NCBI GenBank assembly: GCA_021848025.1
Contig: JAJZND010000024.1
Location: 1 to 37,942 of the forward strand
Direction of reading: 5' to 3'
DNA: 37,942 nucleotides
Source: Microcaldota archaeon
GTDB lineage: Archaea; Micrarchaeota; Micrarchaeia; Micrarchaeales; CABMGC01
Part shown: positions 9,441 through 31,635 of the stretch, piece after piece
Position numbering within the stretch: the stretch's first letter is position 1
Layout: each line of letters begins with the position of its first letter
Translations under genes and position numbers: made by a program
Notes under the pieces: model-generated
The model's input: the letters and a program-made list of their open reading frames with translations, nothing else
Databases searched by the model: none
Told to the model about the DNA's origin: nothing

Positions 9441-11165
9441 ATGCCTTCTTCTGTACTGCAGTTTTCTGAAAATGCGGAGCCGCTCTATATAGAGAACTTT
9501 ACCGATGAGGAAAGCGCAGAGCTGGAAAAGGTAATGACTAACCCTGAAAGCAATATCTTCGCATGGAAGATAGGGGACAACCTGAATCCGGAGCAGGCAG
9601 GCGCCCTGCTTTCAAGGTACAGCAGGACAGCGCTTACCGGCAAAAGGCTCTTCTTAAAGGAGTTCCTGCCAAACAAAGACCGCGGCAGGGAATTTTTTGA
9701 GTCGTGGCTTGTAGATTACGGCGATGATTCAATACAGGAAATGGCCGGCGGAATACCGCTCTCATGCGAATTCGTCTCGAATCTTGCTGTAAAGGAGATA
9801 GAAGACAACAGGATAGGCTCATACATAGAGAAGTCCTCAAGATATGTCTTCTTCGACAAAAAGCTGCCGGACGACGAGTATATGTTTTACAAGGATCCAG
9901 ACATAATGGCTTCAAGGTATGCAGATGAATATGTCTCTCTCCTCCACAGCCTCTTCGAATCATACGTAAGGAATACGCCGTTGATGATTAAGTATATAAA
10001 AGAGAAGAATCCGTTCGAGATCCAGAGCTTCAGGATAGGCGATTCCACGCTAAAGGTCTCTGAATTAGACAAAGAGGCCGAAGAGAGATATGGAATATCT
10101 GCAGCAGACCTGGAAAGATCGTATGAGAACGCAGTAAAGGCCAATGCGCTTGATTTTGTAAGGGACTATCTGCCTATGGCCACGCTTACGCATGTGGGCA
10201 TAAGCATGAATGCCAGATCCTATGACGGAATGCTGAACAAGATGATGGCATCGCCGCTGGCCGAGGCAAGATGGATTGCAGGTTCAATCCATAAAGAACT
10301 TGAAAAGTTAGTTCCTTCCCTGGTCAAGAGGATTGGGGAGAAGCACGGCATAGAATACAGGAAATTCCTTTCAGAAAAGAACGCAGAAATAAGAGAGTAT
10401 ATAAGAAGCATAAGCAAAAACATCGACGCGAAGAAGGCAGCTCCGAACGGGGTAGCGCTTGTTGACTTCACAGGGAAGGGGGATAAAGACCCTAATGGCA
10501 GAGCGCAGGTAATACTTGCAGGCATGATAATTTACAGGTTCAGCGATGGCACTTCGGTCGATCAGTCAATAGAAGCGGCGCGCTCGATGAGTAGTGAGGA
10601 GAGGGAAGCCATAATAGCCAAGTACATAGGAAGGCGCGAGAACAGGAGACATAAACCAGGAAGGGCGTTCGAAAACATAGAATATCTCTTTGACCTTTCC
10701 GGAAGGGTTGGCATATACCGCGACATACAGCGGCACAGGATAGGTACGCAGGAGAGGCAGAACTTTACCGTAAAGCTGGGCTACGACACAAGGAAAGAGT
10801 ACAGAGAGATAGGCATAGAAGATGACTACGAGAGCAAGATGAAGGAGGTAATCTCGCTTTTCAATAAGCTTAGCGAGAAGCTCCCCTACCAGGCACAGTA
10901 CGTAGTGACATACGGCTTCTATATAAACTGGTACTATCGCATGAATGCGCGCGAGCTCTTCCATCTCTGCGAGCTGCGTTCAGGGTTCGGAGGCCATCCC
11001 GATTACAGGAAGATGGTGCAGGAGATGTACTTCAGGGTGAAGGATGTGCATCCTACTGTGGCAAACCACATGCGCTTCATGAACCTGCAGGATAAGCAGC
11101 TGGGAAGGCTTGAATCTGAAATAAGGATAGTCCAGAAGAAGAGAGCGCTCTCATCCGGCACCTAA
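9441..11165 (+). CDS. Tandem ThyX-like protein (two FAD-dependent thymidylate synthase folds)
   Basis: This 574-residue protein is about twice the length of ThyX and reads as two ThyX-like halves. The canonical motif is RHRxxSxNExSxRY. In the first half it appears as DNRIGSYIEKSSRY (residues 122-135), keeping the serine/RY end but not RH. In the second half it is RHRIGTQERQNF (431-442), keeping RHR but losing the rest. YRMNARELFHLCELR in the second half matches the ThyX helix that binds dUMP/FAD. ThyX makes dTMP from dUMP with methylene-folate and FAD. Whether this double form is catalytic is unknown. It overlaps the convergent glyA gene, which would supply methylene-folate, by four bases at the 3' ends. 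Confidence 0.8.
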   Translation: MPSSVLQFSENAEPLYIENFTDEESAELEKVMTNPESNIFAWKIGDNLNPEQAGALLSRYSRTALTGKRLFLKEFLPNKDRGREFFESWLVDYGDDSIQEMAGGIPLSCEFVSNLAVKEIEDNRIGSYIEKSSRYVFFDKKLPDDEYMFYKDPDIMASRYADEYVSLLHSLFESYVRNTPLMIKYIKEKNPFEIQSFRIGDSTLKVSELDKEAEERYGISAADLERSYENAVKANALDFVRDYLPMATLTHVGISMNARSYDGMLNKMMASPLAEARWIAGSIHKELEKLVPSLVKRIGEKHGIEYRKFLSEKNAEIREYIRSISKNIDAKKAAPNGVALVDFTGKGDKDPNGRAQVILAGMIIYRFSDGTSVDQSIEAARSMSSEEREAIIAKYIGRRENRRHKPGRAFENIEYLFDLSGRVGIYRDIQRHRIGTQERQNFTVKLGYDTRKEYREIGIEDDYESKMKEVISLFNKLSEKLPYQAQYVVTYGFYINWYYRMNARELFHLCELRSGFGGHPDYRKMVQEMYFRVKDVHPTVANHMRFMNLQDKQLGRLESEIRIVQKKRALSSGT

Positions 11166-18369: not shown

Positions 18370-18445
18370 TAAATGCAGCACGCAGACCGGATAACACTGG
18401 CTGGCTACCAGAATGCTTTACTACAAATGCCTTGCTATAATAAGG

Positions 18446-18460
18446 TTTTTAAATATAAAT
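18446..18460 (+). promoter_or_regulatory. TATA box at the head of the surface-protein block
   Basis: TTTTTAAATATAAAT, centred near 18455, predicts transcription from about 18481, just before the ATG at 18485. This argues against the two earlier in-frame ATGs (18461 and 18473). Confidence 0.5.
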
Positions 18461-18484
18461 ATGCCTTCATCTATGGCGGTATTT

Positions 18485-18985
18485 ATGGGAAAAATCCAGT
18501 ATATCCTTGGAACAATACTAACTTCGCTCACTATGCTTGCGCTTGGAATGTTTGCAATTCCTGGAATAACCTTCGGGGGCACCTCAAGCAATACGGTTGT
18601 GGCAAGCGTAAATGTACCATTGTATTGCGGCATAAGCCTGAGCACCAATACAATATCCTTTGGTTCGGTCTCACCAGGTTCGAGCGTGCCTACTGACGTG
18701 CCTGTCACAGATACCAATGCTGCAGGGAATACGCAGGCAAATGTCCTTATAGACGGAGGAAACTGGATCTCAGGAAGCAACAATTTCGGAGTCGGCAATA
18801 CATTATGGGATTCTACCACCCAGACAACATATGTTGGAAATGTGCTGACTTTAACCCCGATAAATACTGAGGAGACATTGGCGGCCAGCGCAGGCTCGAA
18901 CACACTCTATTTTGGCCTAGCAGTACCGGCTTCGCAGGCAGCAGGCGCATATACCCAAAATATAGTAATAGAGAACAGCTGCTGA
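18485..18985 (+). CDS. Secreted protein: signal segment plus Cys-to-C-terminal-Cys module
   Basis: This 166-residue protein has a hydrophobic export segment (about residues 5-31). A single Ser/Thr/Gly-rich beta-type domain follows, running from C48 to the very last residue, C166. I do not recognise a named family. The same module, about 117 residues from cysteine to terminal cysteine, ends the 1323-residue protein encoded at 22517-26488. Shared blocks are GGNWISGS, FGV-NTLW, YFG-AVPASQ and YTQNI-IENSC. The two cysteines would close the domain with a disulfide. The protein may be a minimal surface subunit; a pilin role is possible but no pilin signal peptide is visible. It starts a run of seven same-strand genes and is five bases from the next. 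Confidence 0.7.
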   Translation: MGKIQYILGTILTSLTMLALGMFAIPGITFGGTSSNTVVASVNVPLYCGISLSTNTISFGSVSPGSSVPTDVPVTDTNAAGNTQANVLIDGGNWISGSNNFGVGNTLWDSTTQTTYVGNVLTLTPINTEETLAASAGSNTLYFGLAVPASQAAGAYTQNIVIENSC

Positions 18986-18990
18986 GCCGC

Positions 18991-19566
18991 ATGGAAGTGC
19001 CAAGAAATAATGCAACTGCTTTTTTGCTGGGTTTTGCATTATTCTTCCTAATGCTTCAAAGTGTCTACGGCCAGTTCGGCGAAGTGGCAGGCCAGCCTAC
19101 AATAAATGTACCTATTGGCAGCTCAAATGCCACTAATGTGACTCTCGCAAATTCCGGCCCAACCCCAATCCCATTTACCAGCGTTTTGCCTTCCTTTACA
19201 AACTACGGAAAGACAACGCCACCTGTAATTACGCTGATTCCTGAAAACGGCACTATACCTCCATACAGCGATTTAAATATAGAGATAAAGGCATACCTGC
19301 CTGCGCACAACAATAGCGTAGGAGACAGCTGGAACGGCATAGTGCAGTTCATTGAGATCTCCAATACTACAAATGCGGGAGGCGCGGTAATAAGCGCAGG
19401 TCTTGCAAAGATACTTACAGTCAATGCAGTGTCTCCTAAGCCAGATCTCTGGCCTTATGTGCTAGCAGTGATAATAGTTGCGGCAATAGCAGCAATTTCA
19501 TATGTGGTGCTTAAAAGGAGAGGCACAAAGAGAAGTAATACGAGATTCAAAAGAAGGAAGCGCTAG
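18991..19566 (+). CDS. Surface protein with C-terminal membrane anchor (family not recognised)
   Basis: This 191-residue protein has an N-terminal signal segment (about residues 10-28), an extracellular beta-rich domain of about 110 residues with several N-glycosylation sequons (NAT, NVT, NGT, NTT), and one C-terminal membrane helix (about 151-170). A very basic tail (KRRGTKRSNTRFKRRKR) predicts an outside domain with a short cytoplasmic end. The ectodomain has the look of a transthyretin/NEW-type beta sandwich (TLANSGPTPIPF, PPYSDLNIEIKAYLP) common in archaeal envelopes, but I cannot assign it. Its start is five bases after the previous stop, so it is probably in the same transcript. Confidence 0.7.
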   Translation: MEVPRNNATAFLLGFALFFLMLQSVYGQFGEVAGQPTINVPIGSSNATNVTLANSGPTPIPFTSVLPSFTNYGKTTPPVITLIPENGTIPPYSDLNIEIKAYLPAHNNSVGDSWNGIVQFIEISNTTNAGGAVISAGLAKILTVNAVSPKPDLWPYVLAVIIVAAIAAISYVVLKRRGTKRSNTRFKRRKR

Positions 19567-19652
19567 AGAGCTACTTCATTCAAATAAAATCAAATAGGAA
19601 AGTTCTTATTTATTTTATTACCCTGTTATTCTGGGCAATATCGGTATTATAC

Positions 19653-21689
19653 ATGAAATTTTCAATTCTACTAAATAATTTGAAATGGGAAGCATTAAGC
19701 CTTATTTCCTTTATGTTCATCTTCATGACAGCGACATATGCCAATGGAACTGAGATCCTTACAGCCAATGTCCTGGTTCCATGCCCATTCTCAGTAAGCA
19801 TTGCCACTTCAAATAACTTATATATACTGCCGCTTACCACAAATATAACCTTCCAATATACGTTGTCCAATTCAATATGCTCCAGTTACATCGACAGCGG
19901 CTTCTTAAATGTTACCAATTCCCGCAGCGTGCCCATCTACAGCATACCTGTGAAATATCAGATTATGAATGGTGTAATCCCTATCCCCTATAAGCCATTT
20001 CCGAACACCACTTCAAGCTATTCCGCAACAATCGCATTCTCATCAAATTACTTCGCTAACCAGAGCTCAGCAGCATTCGAGGTGGTAGAGCCTGCTATTC
20101 TCAGAATATATAACCTCAGCGCAAGCCCAACTATCTCTCCAGGATCCATACTCACAATCTCGCAGAATATAACCAACAGTGGTTTCCTTTCCCCTAACAA
20201 CATGGTGCTGCACACAGAGATAACAGGACCTAAAGTTCTCAAAGATGTTGTCAACACAAGCGTATCCTCTCCAGGCTTCATCAGCTTTACAGTAAACGGG
20301 GTCACAAGCAACCTCGGAGCATACCATATATCTGAGAATGTAAGCTATTACAACGGCGCATCGAATGCAATATCTCCAAATGTAAGTTCTGCATATACTG
20401 TGGCAAGTGCTGCAAGTTCAACTTCCACGCCTTCAGGCCCTCCAGCACCATCTCCCTCGAAAGTGCAAGAACCTATAACCATAATAAGCACAGCCCTTCT
20501 ATCAAGCATACCCCTACTTACCGGTGCCTATGCGGGTTTCGCCGCAGTCTCTGAAATAGAGCTTACTAATATGGGCAGCTTGCCTGTCTGGGTTAACATG
20601 AGCGTTCCGGAAATTACGGAATTCGGTTCAGTCTCAATCTCTCAAAACTCAATCTATCTGCTACCGTCATCAAATCTCTCCGTACAGCTATTCTACAAGA
20701 CAAATAGCAACGTAACTCCTGGCGAGTACGTGGTTCCGATTAACTTCTCTGTTTCGCAGATCGGGCACAGAAGTTCCAGTGAAACTCTGTTTCCGGTGCT
20801 ATCGATAACAAACATGAATGACAAGCCAAGCGCAACCGCTTCAAGCCTCACATTCCAAAGCGCCTCCCATATTGCTTCCGGATCTATAGAAGTCTCGAAC
20901 CCTTATAACCGCACCGTATACAATGCAACTGTCTCGGTTAGCATACCAACTGTTGCGTTATCTAATACCTCCTCATTCATTCTCTCTGGGGCAGTAAGCA
21001 ACATAACAAAGACAGAACTTGCATACGTGCTAAACTGGTTTATACCTGAAATGCCAGGACATGCAAGTACATACGTCTATTATTATGCAAGCAATGTGAT
21101 AGAACCAGAGCTTCTCTCCTCTCCGGAAACCCAAGTGAGCATACCTTCCTCTGCGCAGTCATCGCTAACCATATTCCAGATCAACATACCTACATTTTAC
21201 ACTGGCACTGAAAGCAGCATAAACGTCAGTTCCTTCTATACTGGTCAGAGACCTGAAAATGTAACATATAATCTAGTTTCGCAGCCATCAATGATTGTGC
21301 AGAATCCTTTTCAGGTTTTCAGGGCCATGCCGAACCAGGAAATAAACACGGAATTCTATGTAAACGGCGCAAAGAATCCAGGCACATATCTCCTCACTCT
21401 TTATATTCAGGGCACTGGAATAAATAAGACCTATTCGCTTCCTGTTCTGGTATTGCAGAAACCCGCTCCGCCACCTCCCACAACAAATTCCACTCCAGTA
21501 AGTCCAGTCCCATTAAGTGCATTAGTTCTAAAGCCAGATATTATTTACCCAATAAGCGCTGCAGTGGCTGCAGTAGTAGTTCTTACGGCGATACTCTTCA
21601 GGTACAGAAGGCCAGCAGGCTACGATGCGCAAAGGGTTAAAAGGCTTCAAGAGCTAAAAGAGCACATAGGTAGGAGTGAACGAGATTGA
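19653..21689 (+). CDS. Large single-pass surface protein with Ig/NEW-like domains
   Basis: This 678-residue protein has a signal peptide (about residues 10-31), a long extracellular region rich in Asn-x-Ser/Thr sequons, a proline-rich hinge (KPAPPPPTTNSTP), a membrane helix (about 630-650) and a basic cytoplasmic tail of about 28 residues. Two regions look like COG1470/NEW-type beta-sandwich domains found in archaeal surface proteins (IELTNMGSLPVWVNMSVPE and GTYLLTLYIQGTG are typical strands). A Pro/Ser-rich linker near residue 255-270 separates them. A possible TATA box (TTATTTATTTTA, 19606-19617) gives it its own promoter as well. The gene for the MinD-like ATPase begins 15 bases after its stop. 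The exact role is unknown. Confidence 0.75.
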   Translation: MKFSILLNNLKWEALSLISFMFIFMTATYANGTEILTANVLVPCPFSVSIATSNNLYILPLTTNITFQYTLSNSICSSYIDSGFLNVTNSRSVPIYSIPVKYQIMNGVIPIPYKPFPNTTSSYSATIAFSSNYFANQSSAAFEVVEPAILRIYNLSASPTISPGSILTISQNITNSGFLSPNNMVLHTEITGPKVLKDVVNTSVSSPGFISFTVNGVTSNLGAYHISENVSYYNGASNAISPNVSSAYTVASAASSTSTPSGPPAPSPSKVQEPITIISTALLSSIPLLTGAYAGFAAVSEIELTNMGSLPVWVNMSVPEITEFGSVSISQNSIYLLPSSNLSVQLFYKTNSNVTPGEYVVPINFSVSQIGHRSSSETLFPVLSITNMNDKPSATASSLTFQSASHIASGSIEVSNPYNRTVYNATVSVSIPTVALSNTSSFILSGAVSNITKTELAYVLNWFIPEMPGHASTYVYYYASNVIEPELLSSPETQVSIPSSAQSSLTIFQINIPTFYTGTESSINVSSFYTGQRPENVTYNLVSQPSMIVQNPFQVFRAMPNQEINTEFYVNGAKNPGTYLLTLYIQGTGINKTYSLPVLVLQKPAPPPPTTNSTPVSPVPLSALVLKPDIIYPISAAVAAVVVLTAILFRYRRPAGYDAQRVKRLQELKEHIGRSERD

Positions 21690-21704
21690 ATATGGATTGA
21701 TGAA

Positions 21705-22496
21705 ATGCCGCCCCATATAATAAGGATATCATCCCAAAAAGGAGGCGTTGGCAAGACTACCATAGCCGTAAATCTTTCTGTTTTGCTGCAGAAATTCGGA
21801 TATGAAACACTGCTGATAGACAGCGATACGGGAAATCCTTCTGTAGGATTCCATATTGGTCTGGAAAAGGCAAATATCGGGTACAAGGATTTTGTCACAG
21901 GCAAGATGGAATTGAATGAGGTAGCCGTTCCGCATGCGCCTTCAGGCATGCATGTTGTCCCAGGACTGGTAAATGTGAGGCCTTTCGAGCTTAATGAGCG
22001 CGATGAGAAGAACGCAATACTCAAATTGAAGAAATCGCGCTACCAATTCATAGTAATAGACACGGAGATAGGATGCAATGGAATAACTGGGGGAATTGAC
22101 GAGGCGCTTATACTTACTACTCCGAGCATGCCCAGCTGCAGCAGCGTGATCAGGATGGCAAAGGAATTTGATCAGATGCAGTTGAGCCATAATCTTGCAA
22201 TAAACCGCGTGAAGAACAGGAGTTACGAGATAAGTGAGGCAGAGATCGCGGAGATGTACGAGAGAAAGACCATCGCTTCTATTCCGGAAGACGATATAGT
22301 TCCGGAGAGCATAGAGGAAAAGATTCCAGCGGTATTGCTGAAACCTAAAAATAGGTTTAGCATGGACATATCTGTGCTTGCAAGGCACTACGCAATGGCT
22401 ATAGGCGCCGAGCCAGAAAGCTCAGGAAAAGCAGGCAAGTTATCATTTCTGGAGAAGATAAGCAGGATAATACATATGCTGAGATCCAAGTCTTAG
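21705..22496 (+). CDS. MinD/ParA-like P-loop ATPase
   Basis: This 263-residue protein has the deviant Walker A motif KGGVGKTT (residues 12-19, signature lysine K12 and P-loop K17), the switch aspartates in LLIDSDTGNP, and a Walker B strand FIVIDTEIG, where the usual DTPPG of MinD is altered to DTEIG. It ends with SFLEKISRIIHMLRSKS, an amphipathic basic helix placed like the membrane-targeting sequence of MinD. MinD-type ATPases cycle between cytoplasmic and membrane-bound dimers to position division or surface machines. All neighbouring genes encode surface proteins, so a role in placing or organising a surface structure is inferred. It is the only soluble cytoplasmic product of the block. 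Confidence 0.88.
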   Translation: MPPHIIRISSQKGGVGKTTIAVNLSVLLQKFGYETLLIDSDTGNPSVGFHIGLEKANIGYKDFVTGKMELNEVAVPHAPSGMHVVPGLVNVRPFELNERDEKNAILKLKKSRYQFIVIDTEIGCNGITGGIDEALILTTPSMPSCSSVIRMAKEFDQMQLSHNLAINRVKNRSYEISEAEIAEMYERKTIASIPEDDIVPESIEEKIPAVLLKPKNRFSMDISVLARHYAMAIGAEPESSGKAGKLSFLEKISRIIHMLRSKS

Positions 22497-22516
22497 CCTT
22501 TAAGGTTTCGGGTTAG

Positions 22517-25500
22517 ATGGAGATGCAGAAGAGATACTATATAATCGCATATGCGGCACTCTTCCTCGCCTTTCTAAGCCTGCACTACGGCCTTACCAGC
22601 ATGCAGCCAGTACATGCTGCTGCTATGCAACAACTTTCTTTTAGCAGTTCATTTAACTCGTCTGCATTATCAACATCCTCTTCAACAACGCTGCCTGCTA
22701 CTTACAATACGCCACAATCGGAAAACCAGTCCACTACTACCTCAACCTCCTCCTCTTCCACCTCTTCATTGCCTACTACCGTTCAGTATGGTGTTAGCAA
22801 TGCCTACGTAATAAACCTTAATTCAACAGTTCCCACTTCAGGAATAATTTTCAATGGAATTTATTACCAAAAAGGCAGCGTAGTCAATGTAACTGGAGGA
22901 AACTACTCCATAAGCGCGCCAGCCTCCAAAGGCTGGGCCTTCTCTTACTGGGAATCAGAAAATGCCAATGTAGCAATAGCCAGTCCATATTCCTTAAACA
23001 CCACTGCATATATATCAGGCAGCGGCTCCATAACAGCAAATTACAATTCTATTATAAAATTCGTGGAAACTGGCTTGCCTGCAAATACAAGCTGGAGCAT
23101 TTCATCTGGAAATTACGTGACTCGCGGAACCTCAAACATACTCTATCTGGAAGGCCCGCCTGGCAACTATCCGTTCATTGCATATAACGTATCAATGAAT
23201 AATTCTATATACGACCCATCGCCTTCAGAAGGGATAGCATCAGAGGGAAACCTGGTAGCTATCAACTATACCTTAGCCCAAAGCAACACGCTTGGAAATG
23301 CATTGCCCAAGGTAGAGCCTGCTGCCACTTCTACTTATAATATACGTGGCAACAATGTTACTGCTTTTGTTAATGCAAAAGAGTTCCAAATGCCTCTTCC
23401 TGGCAATATACTCGACTCAGTTGCGGTAAACCTGACTACAACAGGTATAGGGATAAACCTAAGCATTTCAACTTCGTCTGCCATTCCATCCAGATATCCG
23501 AAAATGCAGAATCCAATATACAACTTTATTCAAATAAACGGAACTGCGAAAAAAGGCGGAGTAAGCAGCGGTATCGACAAATATGTCAGCAGAGCAATAT
23601 ACAATTTCTCAGTGCCTATCGCCTGGGTTGCGCAGAACAACGTACGCTACACAGACATAAAGTTGTTCAAGTACGTATCGGGCAATTGGGTTATGCTTCC
23701 TACCATATACCTTGGATCAAATGCCACTTCATACCTTTATTCGGCCACTTCCAACTCATTTTCTGCCTATGTGGTAGGAGTTGCTACAAATACAAATACT
23801 GCATCATCAACAACAAGCATAAGCGTGACAGTAACAGGCAGCTATCCTACTTATATATACGCTGACGGTGCACTATCAACCACAGCCAGCAACTATGCTG
23901 TAACAACAAGCTATACTCTGGATTCTTTCGGCTCATACAACTACAGCAACGGAGCAAGTGGTCGCAAACTTGTTGCAAATGAAAATGTATCTTCGGTAGG
24001 CCATAGCACCAGCAGCACAGGCACTTTTAGCACGCCAAGCAAATTGCCTGTGGATACTGCAATTGCAGGAATAGGGGCAAATGTAATATTCTCACACGCG
24101 TCCATACAGGTTGTGAACTCAAGTTCCTCAGTAACCAAGAGTAAAACCCTTTCTTATACGGTGCCAGCTACGAACAGTTTCGTCATATTTGGAATTGCTT
24201 CAGGAGGAAGCAGTTTCTCTGCTCCTCTGCCTTCTGGGTGTACGCCAATCACAGCTACAGACAGCGCTTCAGATGCAGAAGCAGAAGTTGCGTACTGCAC
24301 ACTGAGCTCCAGCGGCTCAGTTACCATAACAGCATCTTCTCCCTCCTCGATCTCTGCTGCTGCATACGAATGGTCTCCGGCAACAGTAACATTGGATGAC
24401 AACCCATCAACAGGCATAATCCTAACTAACAGCGTGGATGAGGCAAGTGGGAATACCGTACAGGTGCTTGGGACTAGCACTATGAACGCAATAGCGCCCT
24501 ATGGGTATACGTTCGGCAGCTGGTCAGTAGATTCTGCCGACTCTTCGAATGTTGTGATAAGCGATCCTTCATCGCCTAATACGCTTGTCACAATCGAAGG
24601 CAATGCGATAATAACTGCCAATTTCAAACCTCCGAGCGTATCTCTCTCATACTCAAATGGAATTGTCGATGCAGGCCAGTCCGAGGTGCTTACTGCAACA
24701 GTATCTGGTACTTTATCAGGCCCATTCACCTACAACTATATAATAACAAATACAATCAGCGGCGCTCAGGTTGCAAATATGCTTTTCACAGGGGTAGCAA
24801 CCTCTTCTAATACATTTATCTGGAATACTGCGGGCTTCGCAGGCGATACTGTCCAGGCAAATGTCATAGTAACCAGCGCCTCTACTGTAATAAGTTCAGG
24901 AAACGTTCCTACTGTGGAAATAACAAATACCATCTCTCACCTGCCATACCCATACGGCGTCGCCTTCAACCCAAACGGCGCAACTTCATATGTCGTCGAG
25001 ACTAGTGGGAGCTATGTTAGTGCGTTCGACGTTTCCACAAATACAGTTATTACTAATATTTTTACAGGTTCAAATCCGTATAAAGTCGCCTTCAACCCCC
25101 AGGGAACCATCGCCTATGTTCCTAATCAAAATAGCAATGTAACAAGTGTCATAAATGCCTTAACAAACACTGAAGTCAATACCATAGCTACTGGCAGTTC
25201 ATACGGTGTCGCCTTCAACCCCAAGGGCACCATCGCATACGTTACCTTAGATAATGATCCTGGCACGGTAGATGCAATCAACACATCCACAAATACAATA
25301 GTAAATACTATCTCTGTAGGGATAGATCCGCAGTCAGTCGCCTTCAACCCACAGGGCACCCTCGCATATGTCCTGAACTGGGGTACCAATACAATCAGTG
25401 TAATCAATGCCTCAACTGAAACGGTAGTAAATACGATCTACCTGTTAACAAATCCGCAGGCAGTCGTCTTCAACCCACAGGGCACCCTCGCCTACGTTAA

Positions 25501-26488
25501 CGAATGCTCGAATAGATTCAATGGCTGTCCGCTTTACACATATGTCGTTGTTATCAATGTCTCCACAAGCAAGATTGTCAATACAATTGCAATAGGCCCT
25601 AATCCGTTTGGGATAGCAATAAATCCGCAGGGAACTTTGCTCTACATAACTACTGAGTACAATATTAGCGTGATGAGTACTGCGACTGATACCATGGTAG
25701 ATACAGTCCCAGCACTATTCCCAGAACAGATTGCAGTCAATCCTTCTGGAACCTTAGCATACGCTACAGATACAAATTACAATAACTTAAGCATTCTCTC
25801 AACGTATCCATACTTCACAATAAATCCTTCACTTGTATTTACCTCATTTACTGACAGCAGCAGTCAGGTAAGCGCAGGCCAGCAGCAAACCGTGACTGCT
25901 ACCGTGAGCGGAGGCACAAGCCCATACACTTACAATTTCCTCGTATACAATAGCGTAGGCCTGGTCGCTAACGTGCTATATTCTGGTGTCTTTCAAACAT
26001 CCAACTCGTTTGCCTTTACCCAGCAAGCATTATGGGGGAGCGGACCTATTACTGTTAATGTAATAGTTACTGACAGCGCCTCAACTCCAGAATCAGTAAA
26101 AAGTACGTTGGTATATAACACTGGCACCGTGTTATGCGATATTTCTCTCTCCCCTACTGCGCTTGCATTCGGCTCAACAAATCCGGGATCTTACTTGCCC
26201 ACTAATGCAGGAGTGGTAGATACGAATAGCGGAGGTTCCAATGCCTATATGTATGTATACGGGGGCAACTGGATTTCAGGAAGCCACAGCTTCGGAGTTT
26301 CTAACACACTATGGAGCGCAATTACGCAGGCATCATATACCGGAACACAACTTTCCGCAACATCATCCAATACTGCAATGCTTGTCCCATCTTCTGGCTC
26401 AAACACAATCTATTTCGGAGTGGCTGTTCCGGCATCGCAGCCGAGCGGATCATACACTCAGAATATAATAATAGAGAACAGCTGCTGA
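22517..26488 (+). CDS. Giant surface protein with PGF-pre-PGF-like domain, YVTN beta-propeller and terminal Cys module
   Basis: This 1323-residue secreted protein has a signal peptide (about residues 8-34) and a Ser/Thr-rich linker (45-80). Next come an InlB-like repeat (near 120-165), a GLPANTSWSI-type domain, a region resembling the PGF-pre-PGF domain (about 272-421), and a second InlB-like repeat (about 638-703). An Ig-like domain, a YVTN-type propeller (about 804-1098) and another Ig-like domain (1104-1205) follow. It ends in the Cys module C1207-C1323 shared with the protein at 18485. Six cysteines form three close or module-bounding pairs. It has no C-terminal membrane helix. It could be an S-layer or adhesion component; the ligand is unknown. 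Initiation is at ATG 22517 or 22523. Confidence 0.8.
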   Translation: MEMQKRYYIIAYAALFLAFLSLHYGLTSMQPVHAAAMQQLSFSSSFNSSALSTSSSTTLPATYNTPQSENQSTTTSTSSSSTSSLPTTVQYGVSNAYVINLNSTVPTSGIIFNGIYYQKGSVVNVTGGNYSISAPASKGWAFSYWESENANVAIASPYSLNTTAYISGSGSITANYNSIIKFVETGLPANTSWSISSGNYVTRGTSNILYLEGPPGNYPFIAYNVSMNNSIYDPSPSEGIASEGNLVAINYTLAQSNTLGNALPKVEPAATSTYNIRGNNVTAFVNAKEFQMPLPGNILDSVAVNLTTTGIGINLSISTSSAIPSRYPKMQNPIYNFIQINGTAKKGGVSSGIDKYVSRAIYNFSVPIAWVAQNNVRYTDIKLFKYVSGNWVMLPTIYLGSNATSYLYSATSNSFSAYVVGVATNTNTASSTTSISVTVTGSYPTYIYADGALSTTASNYAVTTSYTLDSFGSYNYSNGASGRKLVANENVSSVGHSTSSTGTFSTPSKLPVDTAIAGIGANVIFSHASIQVVNSSSSVTKSKTLSYTVPATNSFVIFGIASGGSSFSAPLPSGCTPITATDSASDAEAEVAYCTLSSSGSVTITASSPSSISAAAYEWSPATVTLDDNPSTGIILTNSVDEASGNTVQVLGTSTMNAIAPYGYTFGSWSVDSADSSNVVISDPSSPNTLVTIEGNAIITANFKPPSVSLSYSNGIVDAGQSEVLTATVSGTLSGPFTYNYIITNTISGAQVANMLFTGVATSSNTFIWNTAGFAGDTVQANVIVTSASTVISSGNVPTVEITNTISHLPYPYGVAFNPNGATSYVVETSGSYVSAFDVSTNTVITNIFTGSNPYKVAFNPQGTIAYVPNQNSNVTSVINALTNTEVNTIATGSSYGVAFNPKGTIAYVTLDNDPGTVDAINTSTNTIVNTISVGIDPQSVAFNPQGTLAYVLNWGTNTISVINASTETVVNTIYLLTNPQAVVFNPQGTLAYVNECSNRFNGCPLYTYVVVINVSTSKIVNTIAIGPNPFGIAINPQGTLLYITTEYNISVMSTATDTMVDTVPALFPEQIAVNPSGTLAYATDTNYNNLSILSTYPYFTINPSLVFTSFTDSSSQVSAGQQQTVTATVSGGTSPYTYNFLVYNSVGLVANVLYSGVFQTSNSFAFTQQALWGSGPITVNVIVTDSASTPESVKSTLVYNTGTVLCDISLSPTALAFGSTNPGSYLPTNAGVVDTNSGGSNAYMYVYGGNWISGSHSFGVSNTLWSAITQASYTGTQLSATSSNTAMLVPSSGSNTIYFGVAVPASQPSGSYTQNIIIENSC
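24959..25490 (+). repeat. YVTN propeller repeats, about 126 bp each
   Basis: Near-identical segments built on GTCGCCTTCAACCC start at 24959, 25085, 25208, 25337 and 25464 (the last with one change), spaced 123-129 bases. They encode VAFNPQGT-AYV and related blades of about 42 residues. Further blades at each end are more diverged. Confidence 0.85.
26135..26488 (+). repeat. C-terminal Cys module, second copy of the domain at 18626-18985
   Basis: The 117-residue stretch from C1207 to the terminal C1323 aligns along its length with residues 48-166 of the small secreted protein. Shared sequence includes GGNWISGS, the FGV-NTLW block, VPASQ and the ending IENSC. The DNA has diverged, so the duplication is not recent. 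Confidence 0.85.
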
Positions 26489-26583
26489 TTCTTCTTAAAT
26501 TGTTGTAGTCACACCGCGCATTAAACCGCATTAATACGAGATCCGAAAGAAAACGAGGCCACATTAAACGCTTCTAATCGAAA

Positions 26584-26594
26584 CTTATATAAAG
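26584..26594 (+). promoter_or_regulatory. TATA box before the 229-residue secreted protein gene
   Basis: CTTATATAAAG is centred about 46 bases before ATG 26635 and predicts a leader of about 20 bases. It suggests that the last two genes of the block form their own transcript. The rest of the 26489-26634 gap shows no gene. Confidence 0.5.
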
Positions 26595-26634
26595 GCAGGC
26601 ATCAAGTAAATCAATAACTTTTATAGCTGGTCAA

Positions 26635-27324
26635 ATGCGTAATCTATTAGCTTCACTTTTTCTAGTTCTTGCAATCTCTGTGTTTGTGGCATATCACTTT
26701 ATTACTACAGCAGCGCAAGCGCAGCCGAGCAGCAATACCGATGTTTCGTATCAAGTTAGTCCAGGCCCACAACCATACTACTCGTGCCCTTTGCTGACAG
26801 CCTCTCCGGCAAATATAATAGTATCAAATATTTCTGTAATATCTGCTTACAATCTTAACGGAATTACTGATTATGTCCTGCCTCCTGGCCACTCTGGCAG
26901 CATCACTTATAAAGTAAACTCAAATAAATCGGATAACATTGCAGTAGATGCGAGCCTCTCGTTTTCCCATGAAGTGCAGCGCATGAGGAATTACAGCATA
27001 GAGAAGGAGAGCTCATCGCGATACAAGATATGCTTCAGTGCAGGGTACGGCACAGTCTGCAGGTACAGTCATATGCCGCCTGCCGCAAGCTACGCAATTG
27101 TAAATACAAGCTCTGCAAGCCATGATGGCATATACTCATACATCAATACAAGTACCTCGAAGAATGGATATGTAAAGCTATCAATAAACACTTCACCTAG
27201 CGTACAGAAAGGTACATATTGGATAAATATAGCAGGAGGTCCATGCGATGGCGGGCAAACAGCCTTGCTAACAATAGGCAATTCAGCATACAACGGCAGC
27301 GTAAGCACTGGAATTTATTCGTGA
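26635..27324 (+). CDS. Secreted cysteine-containing protein, partner of the G1 peptidase gene
   Basis: This 229-residue protein has an N-terminal hydrophobic export segment (about residues 4-29, ending AAQAQ). An exported domain follows with four cysteines (YYSC, KICF, GTVCRY, GGPCDGG) and several glycosylation sequons. GSITYKVNSN and VQKGTYWINI look like strands of an archaeal envelope beta sandwich. I do not recognise the family. It has no C-terminal membrane helix, so it is either released or held by an uncleaved N-terminal segment. Five bases separate its stop from the ATG of the G1 peptidase fusion, so the two are co-expressed; it could be a chaperone, inhibitor or anchor for that enzyme, but that is only inferred from position. 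Confidence 0.65.
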   Translation: MRNLLASLFLVLAISVFVAYHFITTAAQAQPSSNTDVSYQVSPGPQPYYSCPLLTASPANIIVSNISVISAYNLNGITDYVLPPGHSGSITYKVNSNKSDNIAVDASLSFSHEVQRMRNYSIEKESSSRYKICFSAGYGTVCRYSHMPPAASYAIVNTSSASHDGIYSYINTSTSKNGYVKLSINTSPSVQKGTYWINIAGGPCDGGQTALLTIGNSAYNGSVSTGIYS

Positions 27325-27329
27325 TCTTC

Positions 27330-30300
27330 ATGCGCCAACTAAATATAATAGCAGTTTTTATCATGGCCCTCACATTTCAGATACTAATGGGCATGGCTCA
27401 CGCATCAACACCTGCATCATCCATCAACTGGTCAGGATATGTTGCAGTAGAAAATGTATCTAGCCCACAAAATTTCAGTGTAACTGCAGTTAATGGAAGC
27501 TGGGTCGTGCAGAGTGTTACGCAGACACCAAATGCTACAAATCAGTCGTTCTCCTCACAGTGGATAGGCATTGACGGCTATTCCAATACCTATCTTATTC
27601 AAACTGGCACCGAATCGGATTCTGCAAATGTGTTCGGTTCACCTACATGGGCTTGGTATGAACTGCTTCCGAACTATGCAATCCAGATACCTGGTTTTAC
27701 TGTGAATTCCGGTGACGTGATGTATGCCAGCATAACCCTTATAAATTCAACTTCTCATAAATGGGACATATATCTTGCAGATATAACCCAAAATGAAACT
27801 TTCAATATAACTGTCAACTATACCACTCCGGAGTCAAGCGCAGAATGGATAGACGAAAGGCCGTATGTTGGCTACTGGCCTCCCCTTGCTGATTTCCATC
27901 AATCATTTTATGGCCCAGCCTATACAAATGGAATCCGCAGCAATTATGCTACTATAAACGGTGTGACTTCCCAGATAAACTCATTTCCCAATATAAATAT
28001 CTCCATGACCAATCCGTATCTTGGCGGGTGGGTGCATCCGGTACAGGCATATCCTACCAGTCTGTCACAGAATTCAAGTTTTACTGTGATTGTAAAGATG
28101 CAAGCACAAATAGACGTTTCAAAGACAGAGCTTGATCTTGGCAATTCATCCATACTTTCAGCCTCGATATACGGCGGCTCATTGCCTTATACATACCAAT
28201 GGTACGAACAAGCGCCAGGATCAGGAGGCTATACTGCTATAAAAGGCGCAAACACCTCAGACTATCTCTTTTCTACAAACCAGAGTACACAGATCGGCAC
28301 ATGGCTCTTTGAGCTCAATGTAACTGACAGCTCCGGAGTAAGCAATATGACCTTGCCAGTCAGCGTATCAGTAAACACGCTTCCAGTATTTGACGCGCAG
28401 GCGCAGTCATCTTCCAATTCAATATTTGCTGGGCAGAGTGTTTCACTAACAGTTCCATCCCTTCCAGTCAACGGGTCTGCCCCATTTACCTATAATTGGG
28501 CAGTGAAAACTCCAAATTCGAACAGTTTTGTACCAATATCAGGTTCAGGTATGCTACGATTTGTAAATGCAACTCCATACCCGTTCAATACCTCTGGCAC
28601 ATCTTGCGTATCAAGTAGCAATCATATATACTGCTCAGGTGGACTTGGGGATTCAAAGACAGGCTACACCCTTTTCGGGTTTGTTCCAAATTCTGTCTAC
28701 GGAGAAGTATCTGGCAACAGCATAACATGGAATACATCAACGCAGTATCCTGCTAATATAGCCAATCAGGACTGTGTAGCGAACGGCAGTTACATGTATT
28801 GCATTGGAGGATTGCAGGATGTTGCAGGCCAGACAAATTCTACACAGTCTATCGCACAGCTCGTGAGGCTGGATGCTTATGCGTATATCTCTGGAAATGG
28901 GATTGGAAACGGTAGCCTTACAACGCAATATCCCTATCCCTCCCTGTCAACAGGCCTTAACTCTTCCGGATTTTCATGCGCAACATACAATGACTATATT
29001 TATTGCGTCGGAGGTACCCCCTGGCAAAGCGCATATTATTCCTCGGCATACTACGCTCATCTGTCAAGCAGCGGGATCGGCCAATGGTTTTCCACCACAT
29101 TGTATCCTACGGCTATAGCTGGCCAAAGCTGCACCACATACAATGGATACATATACTGCGTCGGAGGCGAAAATTATACTGGCAGTTTCTTGAATAAGGT
29201 ATATTATGCCCCTGTGACTGCAAACGGGATAGGGACATGGAAGACAACCACGTCATATCCACTGCATGCAAATTACCTACAATGCAGCACATATAGCGAC
29301 TACATATACTGCGCTGAAGGGCAGATTGTATACGGCTCTTCAGAGTTGTATGCAAACCAATCCTTCTTTGCTCATATATCTTCAAATGGCAGTATAAGCC
29401 AATGGGTTGCCGAAGGCTCATTCTGGGATAAACCTGCAAATCAACAGGATAATTGCGCGGTCTCTAATGGCTACATGTATTGTGTGAGCAATATCGGCGC
29501 GCATGTATTTGCAGACAAGCTATATCCTTCATCCTATGTATTTAATTCGAATTCCTATACGCCTTTAGGTACATACGAGTTTGAACTTATTGCTACCGAC
29601 GCTGACGGTGTGACTGCGAATTCTCTTCCTGCCTCAGTAACGATAAATTCGCATGGAAATTTGACAGCTTATATGAACATGCCTGCTAATCATCTCGCCG
29701 TAGGACAAAATGAGATTCTCACTACAAATGTGACTGGCGGAATCCCGCCTTATTCATACGAATGGTTGCTTAATGGCAATAGGCTAAATCAAACAGGTCA
29801 AACAATAACCATTATGGCAAATTCGACCGATATTGGCTCCAACAACGTAACAGTAATAGTTACTGATAGCGCATTCCATGAAGCCATAGCATCAAGCATC
29901 TTTACCGTGATTAGCGTGAATACGCTGGTCACTGTGCCTCTGCCTGTGATTGATGTGGGTACAAATGAGTCACTTAATGCATATATTTCCGGAGTTGCAC
30001 CTCCATACACATATGCCTGGAGCATTAACGGTAATCCTGTAGGAGGCAATTCCAGTACGCTTGTGTTCATAGGGAATTCAACTACACAGTCAGATTCGCC
30101 AGATGTTGTGGGTGTCAAAATCCTTTCAGGCAGCGTTTACTTTACTGCAACAAACACATTAACTGTAAATCCCAAACTTAACATTCCGACTCCCACGGCA
30201 CAGTCATCATCTATCTCGCCTAAGCAATCAGACTTGCTCACGGAACCTACGCCAAGTGGCGGTACTGCGCCCTATTCCTATCAATGGCTTGAGGAAGCGC

Positions 30301-30494
30301 CAGGTTCTTCTTCATTCAGCGTAATTCCAGGCGCAATCTCCCTCACGTACGACTTCACAACAAAAAAGACTACCCCCACAGGCACGTGGCTCTTTGAGAT
30401 AGAGGTCACAGACAGTGCTTCCGCCCCTGTTTCCCTGATATCAAATTCGGTGCCTATTACAATAAAATCAGGCGGCGGCCCTTCGAAACATTGA
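27330..30494 (+). CDS. Secreted peptidase G1 (eqolisin-type glutamic peptidase) fused to Ig-like domains and a Cys-stapled propeller
   Basis: This 1054-residue protein has a signal peptide (about residues 1-23), then a peptidase G1 domain (about 30-250). That domain has WSGYVAVE (W34), QWIGIDGY, YLIQTGT with Q91, AWYELLPNYAIQI, and SAEWIDERP with E172. Q91 and E172 match the catalytic Gln/Glu pair of scytalidoglutamic peptidase. G1 peptidases are acid proteases. Ig-like domains follow (about 258-350, 351-771 with an insert, 772-860, 862-945, 946-1045). A kelch-like propeller of six blades is inserted in the second, each blade with C-x8-C. I choose the ATG at 27330 because it begins the signal peptide and follows GTGATC; a longer reading from 27219 would overlap the previous gene. 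Confidence 0.85.
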   Translation: MRQLNIIAVFIMALTFQILMGMAHASTPASSINWSGYVAVENVSSPQNFSVTAVNGSWVVQSVTQTPNATNQSFSSQWIGIDGYSNTYLIQTGTESDSANVFGSPTWAWYELLPNYAIQIPGFTVNSGDVMYASITLINSTSHKWDIYLADITQNETFNITVNYTTPESSAEWIDERPYVGYWPPLADFHQSFYGPAYTNGIRSNYATINGVTSQINSFPNINISMTNPYLGGWVHPVQAYPTSLSQNSSFTVIVKMQAQIDVSKTELDLGNSSILSASIYGGSLPYTYQWYEQAPGSGGYTAIKGANTSDYLFSTNQSTQIGTWLFELNVTDSSGVSNMTLPVSVSVNTLPVFDAQAQSSSNSIFAGQSVSLTVPSLPVNGSAPFTYNWAVKTPNSNSFVPISGSGMLRFVNATPYPFNTSGTSCVSSSNHIYCSGGLGDSKTGYTLFGFVPNSVYGEVSGNSITWNTSTQYPANIANQDCVANGSYMYCIGGLQDVAGQTNSTQSIAQLVRLDAYAYISGNGIGNGSLTTQYPYPSLSTGLNSSGFSCATYNDYIYCVGGTPWQSAYYSSAYYAHLSSSGIGQWFSTTLYPTAIAGQSCTTYNGYIYCVGGENYTGSFLNKVYYAPVTANGIGTWKTTTSYPLHANYLQCSTYSDYIYCAEGQIVYGSSELYANQSFFAHISSNGSISQWVAEGSFWDKPANQQDNCAVSNGYMYCVSNIGAHVFADKLYPSSYVFNSNSYTPLGTYEFELIATDADGVTANSLPASVTINSHGNLTAYMNMPANHLAVGQNEILTTNVTGGIPPYSYEWLLNGNRLNQTGQTITIMANSTDIGSNNVTVIVTDSAFHEAIASSIFTVISVNTLVTVPLPVIDVGTNESLNAYISGVAPPYTYAWSINGNPVGGNSSTLVFIGNSTTQSDSPDVVGVKILSGSVYFTATNTLTVNPKLNIPTPTAQSSSISPKQSDLLTEPTPSGGTAPYSYQWLEEAPGSSSFSVIPGAISLTYDFTTKKTTPTGTWLFEIEVTDSASAPVSLISNSVPITIKSGGGPSKH

Positions 30495-30576
30495 GTAAGC
30501 ATCAGATATCACTACCTCAACCTAATAAGGAAAAAGTATTTATTGCTGGCCAATATCAAGTAAGCGGAAAATATGC

Positions 30577-31635
30577 TTATTCTTCTTTTTCCGTCCTTAT
30601 CTTCTTCATTTCGCTCTTCCTTATCGCGAGGCGCACCGAGCCGGTGCCGAGCGGAATCTGCTTGCCTACAAGTATGTTCTCTGTCACTCCGCGCATTGGG
30701 TCTACTTCGCCGAAAGTTGCAGCATTGACCAGGTGCTTTGCAGTTTCCTCGTATGCTGCGCGCGCAAAGACCGAGTTCTTCATGCCACTGAGGCCATGCC
30801 TTCCAACTCCCTTTATGTCTCCACTGTATGTCATCGCGTCAGCAACAAGCAGCAGGTGCCTCCTGTCAACGTCTATCTTCTGCTCGTCGAGTGTCTTCAT
30901 CAGCTCATTGGCAAGCGTATTCCTTGCAGCTTCTACCCCAAAGAGCCTGTACATCGCAAAGACGTCATTCGTATAAAGCTTTGACTTGTCAACGCCCTCC
31001 ACATTTATTATATCCTCTATCCTATTCCCTGCAGCTATTATATAGAAGTCACCGTTCTTGTCCTGCTGTATAAGCGCCTTGCCAGCGCCCTCTATCCCCT
31101 GTATCACTTTCTTCATTACCTTTACAGTAGTGTTCCTCACTTCCTTCAGGTTCTTGGTCTTAAGCTTTATAAGAACCTCATAATCCTGCGATTTTACCTC
31201 AAGATCCATCGCCTTCGCAAGCTTAGAGGCAACCTGCGCAGGAGTCATCTCGGCAGCTTCCACTGCCTGCTTGCTAAGTATCAGCTTTATCGTGCCTTTT
31301 GAGAAGTTTTCAATAGCCCTGCGCACTATGCTTGACATCTTAACTTCATTTATCTTCCTTGCCACTGCCTCTACCTTCTCAAAGTTTCTCTTTATTCCAG
31401 GCTCAAGGTAGATCTGTGTTATCGGAGTTGCAGGCTTCTTTTTTGCATCGACAAGTTCAACTATCCTGGGCAGGCCTGAAGTTGCTATTGTTGCCTCTAT
31501 TCCAGCATAGTGGAATGTCCTTAAGATCATCTGCGTTCCCGGTTCTCCGATAGACTGCGCAGCAAGCATGCCTATCGGCTCGCCATAATGCACCCTGTAC
31601 TTCTTGTCAAATCCATTGTTCTTGCTCTCAGCCAT
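30577..31635 (-). CDS. rpoA2: DNA-directed RNA polymerase subunit A''
   Basis: This 352-residue protein is the C-terminal part of the largest subunit, split from A' as in nearly all archaea. EPIGMLAAQSIGEPGTQM and LRTFHYAG form the trigger-loop and bridge-helix side of the active site. DKSKLYTNDVFAMYRLFGVEAAR and RHLLLVADAMTYSG are strongly conserved C-terminal blocks. The start is ATG at 31635, with GGAG seven bases upstream; a reading from 31665 would overlap the end of A'. The gene is four bases from rpoA1. It ends the operon here: no rpl30e, nusA or rps12 follows, although those often do in archaea. Confidence 0.97.
   Translation of the reverse strand: MAESKNNGFDKKYRVHYGEPIGMLAAQSIGEPGTQMILRTFHYAGIEATIATSGLPRIVELVDAKKKPATPITQIYLEPGIKRNFEKVEAVARKINEVKMSSIVRRAIENFSKGTIKLILSKQAVEAAEMTPAQVASKLAKAMDLEVKSQDYEVLIKLKTKNLKEVRNTTVKVMKKVIQGIEGAGKALIQQDKNGDFYIIAAGNRIEDIINVEGVDKSKLYTNDVFAMYRLFGVEAARNTLANELMKTLDEQKIDVDRRHLLLVADAMTYSGDIKGVGRHGLSGMKNSVFARAAYEETAKHLVNAATFGEVDPMRGVTENILVGKQIPLGTGSVRLAIRKSEMKKIRTEKEE

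Follow-up and report, generated by a model that had tools for sequence, protein, structure and literature searches.

A putative glutamic peptidase joined to Ig-like domains and a kelch propeller in a predicted secreted protein of a Micrarchaeota genus

A gene encoding a 1054-aa protein with an N-terminal glutamic peptidase (G1) domain, five Ig-like domains and a six-bladed kelch propeller is located on a contig of 37,942 nucleotides from a Micrarchaeota archaeon (JAJZND010000024.1, analysed over its full length and called the window in the following). The protein is best explained as a putative secreted G1 acid endopeptidase that is borne by a binding scaffold and serves protein scavenging, a reading deduced from sequence to which we give a probability of roughly 0.55. 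The catalytic pair is assigned by alignment to Q91 and E176. The combination of a G1 domain with a propeller was found in the genus of the window only, among all Micrarchaeota sampled.

Gene structure and predicted export

The open reading frame of the protease gene is intact; it starts with ATG, contains no internal stop and lies opposite a stop-rich strand. Its ortholog in another species of the genus (L048) also encodes 1054 aa, is 91% identical and is under purifying selection, and this relative of equal length bears out the protein delimited in the original prediction. Export of the protein is predicted from an N-terminal hydrophobic segment, 36 N-glycosylation sequons and a very low content of basic residues. 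The secreted multi-domain build, which had been proposed with several Ig-like domains and a propeller, was recovered in the form of a predicted signal peptide, five Ig-like domains and a six-bladed kelch propeller (Table 1). No transmembrane or hydrophobic segment was found at the C-terminus, where the chain ends with GGGPSKH, and the Pfam and NCBIfam results for the protein included no sorting-signal family. Since a C-terminal anchor was not found, the protein may be released rather than displayed on the surface. Short tails rich in Gly, Ser, Lys and His (GGGPSKH, SGKTGKH, GGPSNGH) end several secreted micrarchaeal G1 proteins, namely the window protein and those at L005, L003 and L008.

Table 1. 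Features of the protease gene and of its upstream neighbours (positions in the window; residues of the 1054-aa protein)
Feature	Position	Strand	Residues	Basis or remark
Secreted protein of 1323 aa, YVTN propeller and PGF-pre-PGF domain	22517–26488	+		Family matches
Secreted or membrane-anchored protein of 229 aa	26635–27324	+		Ends 5 bp before protease gene
Whole gene, predicted secreted G1 peptidase bearing Ig-like domains and a kelch propeller	27330–30494	+		ORF, Pfam, same-genus ortholog
Signal peptide (predicted)	27330–27407	+	1–26	Hydrophobic segment; cleavage site not from dedicated predictor
G1 (Peptidase_A4) catalytic domain	27408–28115	+	~27–262	Pfam, profile to AGP/SGP, dN/dS
Codon of catalytic Q91 (by alignment)	27600–27602	+	91	Aligned with AGP Q24; kept in 30/30
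Codon of catalytic E176, not E172 (by alignment)	27855–27857	+	176	Aligned with AGP E110; invariant in 20-row alignment
Ig-like/PKD domain 1	28116–28385	+	263–352	K319L-like PKD below cut-off; homologous to Ig-like domains 2 and 5
Ig-like domain 2, split by propeller	28386–29654	+	353–407 and 736–775	Halves each align to Ig-like domains 1 and 5
Six-bladed kelch propeller, CX8C per blade	28551–29534	+	~408–735	Pfam and PDB kelch matches, cysteines, Foldseek
Ig-like domains 3, 4 and 5	29658–30479	+	777–1050	Internal alignment

The G1 catalytic domain

The N-terminal domain is, as judged from profile comparisons, a true member of MEROPS family G1 (Pfam Peptidase_A4). The Pfam match covers residues 33–191 and is significant (E = 2e-21; score 76.8 bits, cut-off 22.3). 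With the single sequence as phmmer query against solved structures, aspergilloglutamic peptidase (AGP, 1y43) was retrieved at 5.6e-6 and scytalidoglutamic peptidase (SGP, 1s2b) at 1e-4, while a profile built from 20 micrarchaeal G1 domains retrieved them at 1.2e-22 and 7.3e-16, respectively; the same profile matched the AGP light chain weakly (N-terminal part; E = 0.53). The NCBIfam search of the protein gave no match to a G1 model. The G1 domain originally placed at the N-terminus is upheld by the Pfam match and the profile match to AGP. An AlphaFold model of the domain, computed from two sequences only, reached a pLDDT of 31 and supports no claim; the fold (a beta-sandwich of two seven-stranded sheets) and the geometry of the dyad are predicted by homology.

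In the alignment with AGP, W78 falls on W10, Q91 on Q24, E172 on E106 and E176 on E110. The dyad of AGP consists of Q24 and E110, the latter bonded by W10 (PMC8147669), and that of SGP of Q53 and E136 (PMC6154417); counted along the printed alignment, E136 corresponds to the second Glu of SAEWIDERP. Since E176 aligns with both AGP E110 and SGP E136, and E172 with AGP E106, the catalytic Glu is by homology E176 and not E172. Within 30 micrarchaeal G1 domains, the Gln at the position of Q91 was found in all 30 and the Glu at position 172 in 27, the remaining three having Asp. The Glu at the position of E176 is invariant in the 20-row micrarchaeal alignment and, by eye, also in 30 of 30 rows. The original prediction was thus right in naming Q91 and wrong in pairing it with E172, and the E172 mutant proposed along with it would probe the wrong residue.

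Between the window gene and its ortholog at L048, dN/dS is 0.154 overall. By segment, it amounts to 0.066 for the G1 domain, 0.115 for the propeller, 0.37 for Ig-like domain 1, 0.23 for the C-terminal Ig-like units and 0.41 for the signal peptide, all from one species pair and imprecise for the short segments. Of these segments, the G1 domain is under the tightest purifying selection. This constraint, together with the retention of the catalytic Gln, the Glu and the Glu-bonding Trp, makes it very improbable that the domain does not cut and is a binding or structural module of an adhesin, even though adhesive-type domains form most of the chain and the family includes non-peptidase homologs (PMC3009609).

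AGP (G01.002) and SGP (G01.001) share with the window protein a homologous catalytic domain with aligned active-site Gln, Glu and Trp. Both fungal enzymes consist of a single domain and are synthesised with a propeptide, and AGP is cut into two chains. In contrast, the window protein is one chain that has about 790 additional residues and a cysteine-free catalytic domain; a propeptide is absent ahead of this domain, which begins at about residue 32. Maturation of AGP involves a cut between its two chains (PMC8147669), and many G1 proteins of the phylum stand alone, so that self-cleavage might be considered, in which low pH would free the G1 domain as a protease and leave the remainder as a separate surface protein. 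This is rather improbable given the missing propeptide, the full-length architecture of equal length in two species, and the lack of any recognised cleavage motif.

The bacterial and archaeal G1 proteins (Alicyclobacillus pepG1 and those of Acidilobus, Caldivirga and Picrophilus), like the window protein, keep the dyad and are devoid of the conserved fungal cysteines; a Gln near residue 90 is common to the window protein and those of Acidilobus and Caldivirga (PMC3009609). Ig-like or propeller parts, as present in the window protein, are not described for them in the available part of that article.

Ig-like domains and kelch propeller

Five Ig-like units were resolved by internal alignment, of which units 1, 2 and 5 are clearly alike. 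Unit 2 is complete only with the propeller spliced out, and each of its halves aligns separately above 300 shuffles. In Pfam, the Ig-like region was matched by the SprB repeat (44.7, cut-off 28), with K319L-like PKD and PKD_4 both below their cut-offs.

The propeller was recognised by Kelch_1 (25.6 bits, cut-off 20.1) and by kelch entries of the PDB. All 12 cysteines of the protein are located in it (426/435, 482/491, 550/559, 601/610, 652/661 and 709/718), always spaced as CX8C, and its six repeats were counted by their positions. A Foldseek search with the AlphaFold model of the propeller, which is of low confidence (mean pLDDT 45, blades 3–5 at about 60–80), led to kelch domains at E of about 1e-9. 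According to the strand limits of this low-confidence model, the two cysteines of each pair face one another across a hairpin of two strands; from the cysteine spacing and the model, we infer one disulfide per blade.

Relatives of the propeller were found in 88 of 295 Micrarchaeota genomes and in 39 of 125 genera, many of them with an N-terminal membrane segment. Among 78 kelch hairpins from 19 loci, both cysteines are present in 68, with exactly eight residues between them in 64. The proteins of this CX8C-hairpin family (28551–29534 in the window and loci L052–L069) are mostly exported or membrane-anchored. A literature search on disulfide-containing kelch propellers in archaea returned nothing relevant.

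Distribution in Micrarchaeota

G1 domains were detected in 39 of the 295 sampled Micrarchaeota genomes, mostly in ORFs of about 300–400 aa and in some of more than 900 aa. In the G1 tree, the window domain groups with several larger proteins and some short ones at modest support. Proteins in which the G1 domain precedes homologs of the window protein's Ig-like units occur in four further genomes (G076, G135, G050 and G230) from two families of the order, and a G1-Ig fusion unique to the window genus was therefore rejected. These proteins differ from the window protein in that the CX8C kelch propeller is absent in those examined, and several carry long N-terminal extensions. What is found only in the window genus is the propeller inserted within Ig-like domain 2, with a CX8C pair per blade. 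Because both modules are widespread, and propeller and G1 domain occur in one protein in this genus only among the sampled Micrarchaeota, the protein is regarded as two common modules joined in one lineage. Searches of viral contigs and phages for G1 relatives gave none. In G076, tandem G1 genes are present (L042:2837–4308 and L036:6084–6641), of which the short ones (163 and 185 aa) look truncated, either ahead of the catalytic Glu region or shortly behind it.

The surprise initially attached to a multi-domain G1 protein in an archaeon is weakened by this recurrence and by archaeal members reported in 2010 (PMC3009609). Also already known, since 2017, are micrarchaeal surface proteins with PKD and kelch domains (PMC5498576). 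The surface-layer proteins of Mia14 (Candidatus Mancarchaeum acidiphilum) described there contain PKD, kelch and YVTN propeller domains, and thus have the phylum, PKD-type domains and kelch in common with the window protein; unlike the latter with its G1 domain, they are not reported to contain a protease domain in the available part of that article. No publication on glutamic peptidases of Micrarchaeota turned up in a full-text literature search.

Gene neighbourhood

The protease gene closes a block of co-directional genes for secreted proteins (18413–30494), which includes one ParA-like gene and is conserved within the genus. The surface-protein block of the original prediction is confirmed by these co-directional genes around the protease gene. 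An ORF directly after the latter (30491–30976) was rejected as a gene, as it overlaps an RNA polymerase gene on the opposite strand and has no family match. A promoter scan with a bacterial-type model, not applicable to archaea, gave nothing above shuffled sequences.

Genes for archaeal MCM and a split RNA polymerase are also present in the window. The products of 18413–18985 and 22517–26488 have a common C-terminal domain (a weak DUF4402 match in the first) and both end exactly with IENSC, possibly a signal for attachment. Elsewhere in the window, a single ORF (9441–11165) encodes a 574-aa protein with two Thy1 (ThyX) stretches, longer than an ordinary ThyX.

In G076, a genome of a different family, homologs of the 229-aa protein encoded immediately ahead of the protease gene are located directly upstream of G1 at each of the three G1 loci, and in G203 a relative is found one gene away from G1. 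At the loci examined outside the two lineages with direct adjacency, no member of this rare family (43 of 295 genomes) lies directly beside a G1 gene. Direct adjacency occurs in three genomes of two lineages, compared to about 0.04 expected from random gene order, a rough hand estimate that clustering of surface genes would raise; the link between both genes is for this reason suggestive only. The 229-aa protein as a dedicated partner of G1 was retained in part only, since most relatives are encoded elsewhere, some with an N-terminal HTH. The ectodomain of the family (CP...GTY...C...LLTIG...PY) was also seen behind an N-terminal HTH-like and membrane segment at L077, L078, L082 and L038:4027–4947; these relatives look like one-piece membrane transcription regulators.

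The conserved block would also suit an enzyme that matures or remodels the coat of the cell itself, trimming or turning over the adjacent large secreted proteins while its Ig-like and kelch parts dock in the coat. The small secreted protein encoded 5 bp ahead of the protease gene points in the same direction, with members of its family also encoded before G1 genes in another micrarchaeal family. On the other hand, this family was not found directly beside G1 outside the two lineages (loci examined), cleavage sites in the neighbouring proteins were not identified, and many micrarchaeal G1 proteins are short (about 300–400 aa), which suits general proteolysis. We consider a role in the own coat possible, but clearly less probable than scavenging.

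Proposed function

As a scavenging endopeptidase, the enzyme would work in acidic surroundings, with E176 activating the water molecule and Q91 stabilising the transition state, following the mechanism proposed for SGP. Its substrate may be free protein, the cell's own coat or a partner cell. The Ig-like arm would hold the catalytic domain away from the attachment point, and the propeller, with one disulfide per blade, may recognise a protein or glycan, either of the cell's own envelope or of a partner cell. Proteolysis focused on a surface protein could then supply peptides to a cell that has amino acid permeases and probably makes few amino acids itself. Scavenging of protein under acidic conditions fits the genome of the window, which has three matches to thermopsin (A5) and also encodes three amino acid permeases; a search of the same genome for subtilisin gave no match. 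Micrarchaeota are reported to be devoid of most amino acid synthesis and to encode extracellular peptidases with which they could scavenge (PMC5864196).

Feeding on, or modification of, the surfaces of neighbouring cells, as suggested in the original prediction, is plausible by analogy, because the PKD and kelch surface proteins of Mia14 have been proposed to function in contact with hosts or other cells (PMC5498576). An extended form of this idea, a contact feeding device in which the stapled propeller binds a surface protein of the host archaeon that the micrarchaeon relies on, the G1 domain digests host surface protein where the two cells touch and the 229-aa partner holds or restrains the enzyme, is speculative and appears unlikely as a whole.

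Cultivated Micrarchaeota depend on other archaea. A G1 protease joined to binding domains would be a concrete and expressible candidate for amino acid uptake across cell contact, and the paired-cysteine kelch family, which extends across much of one micrarchaeal order, may represent a general cell-contact module.
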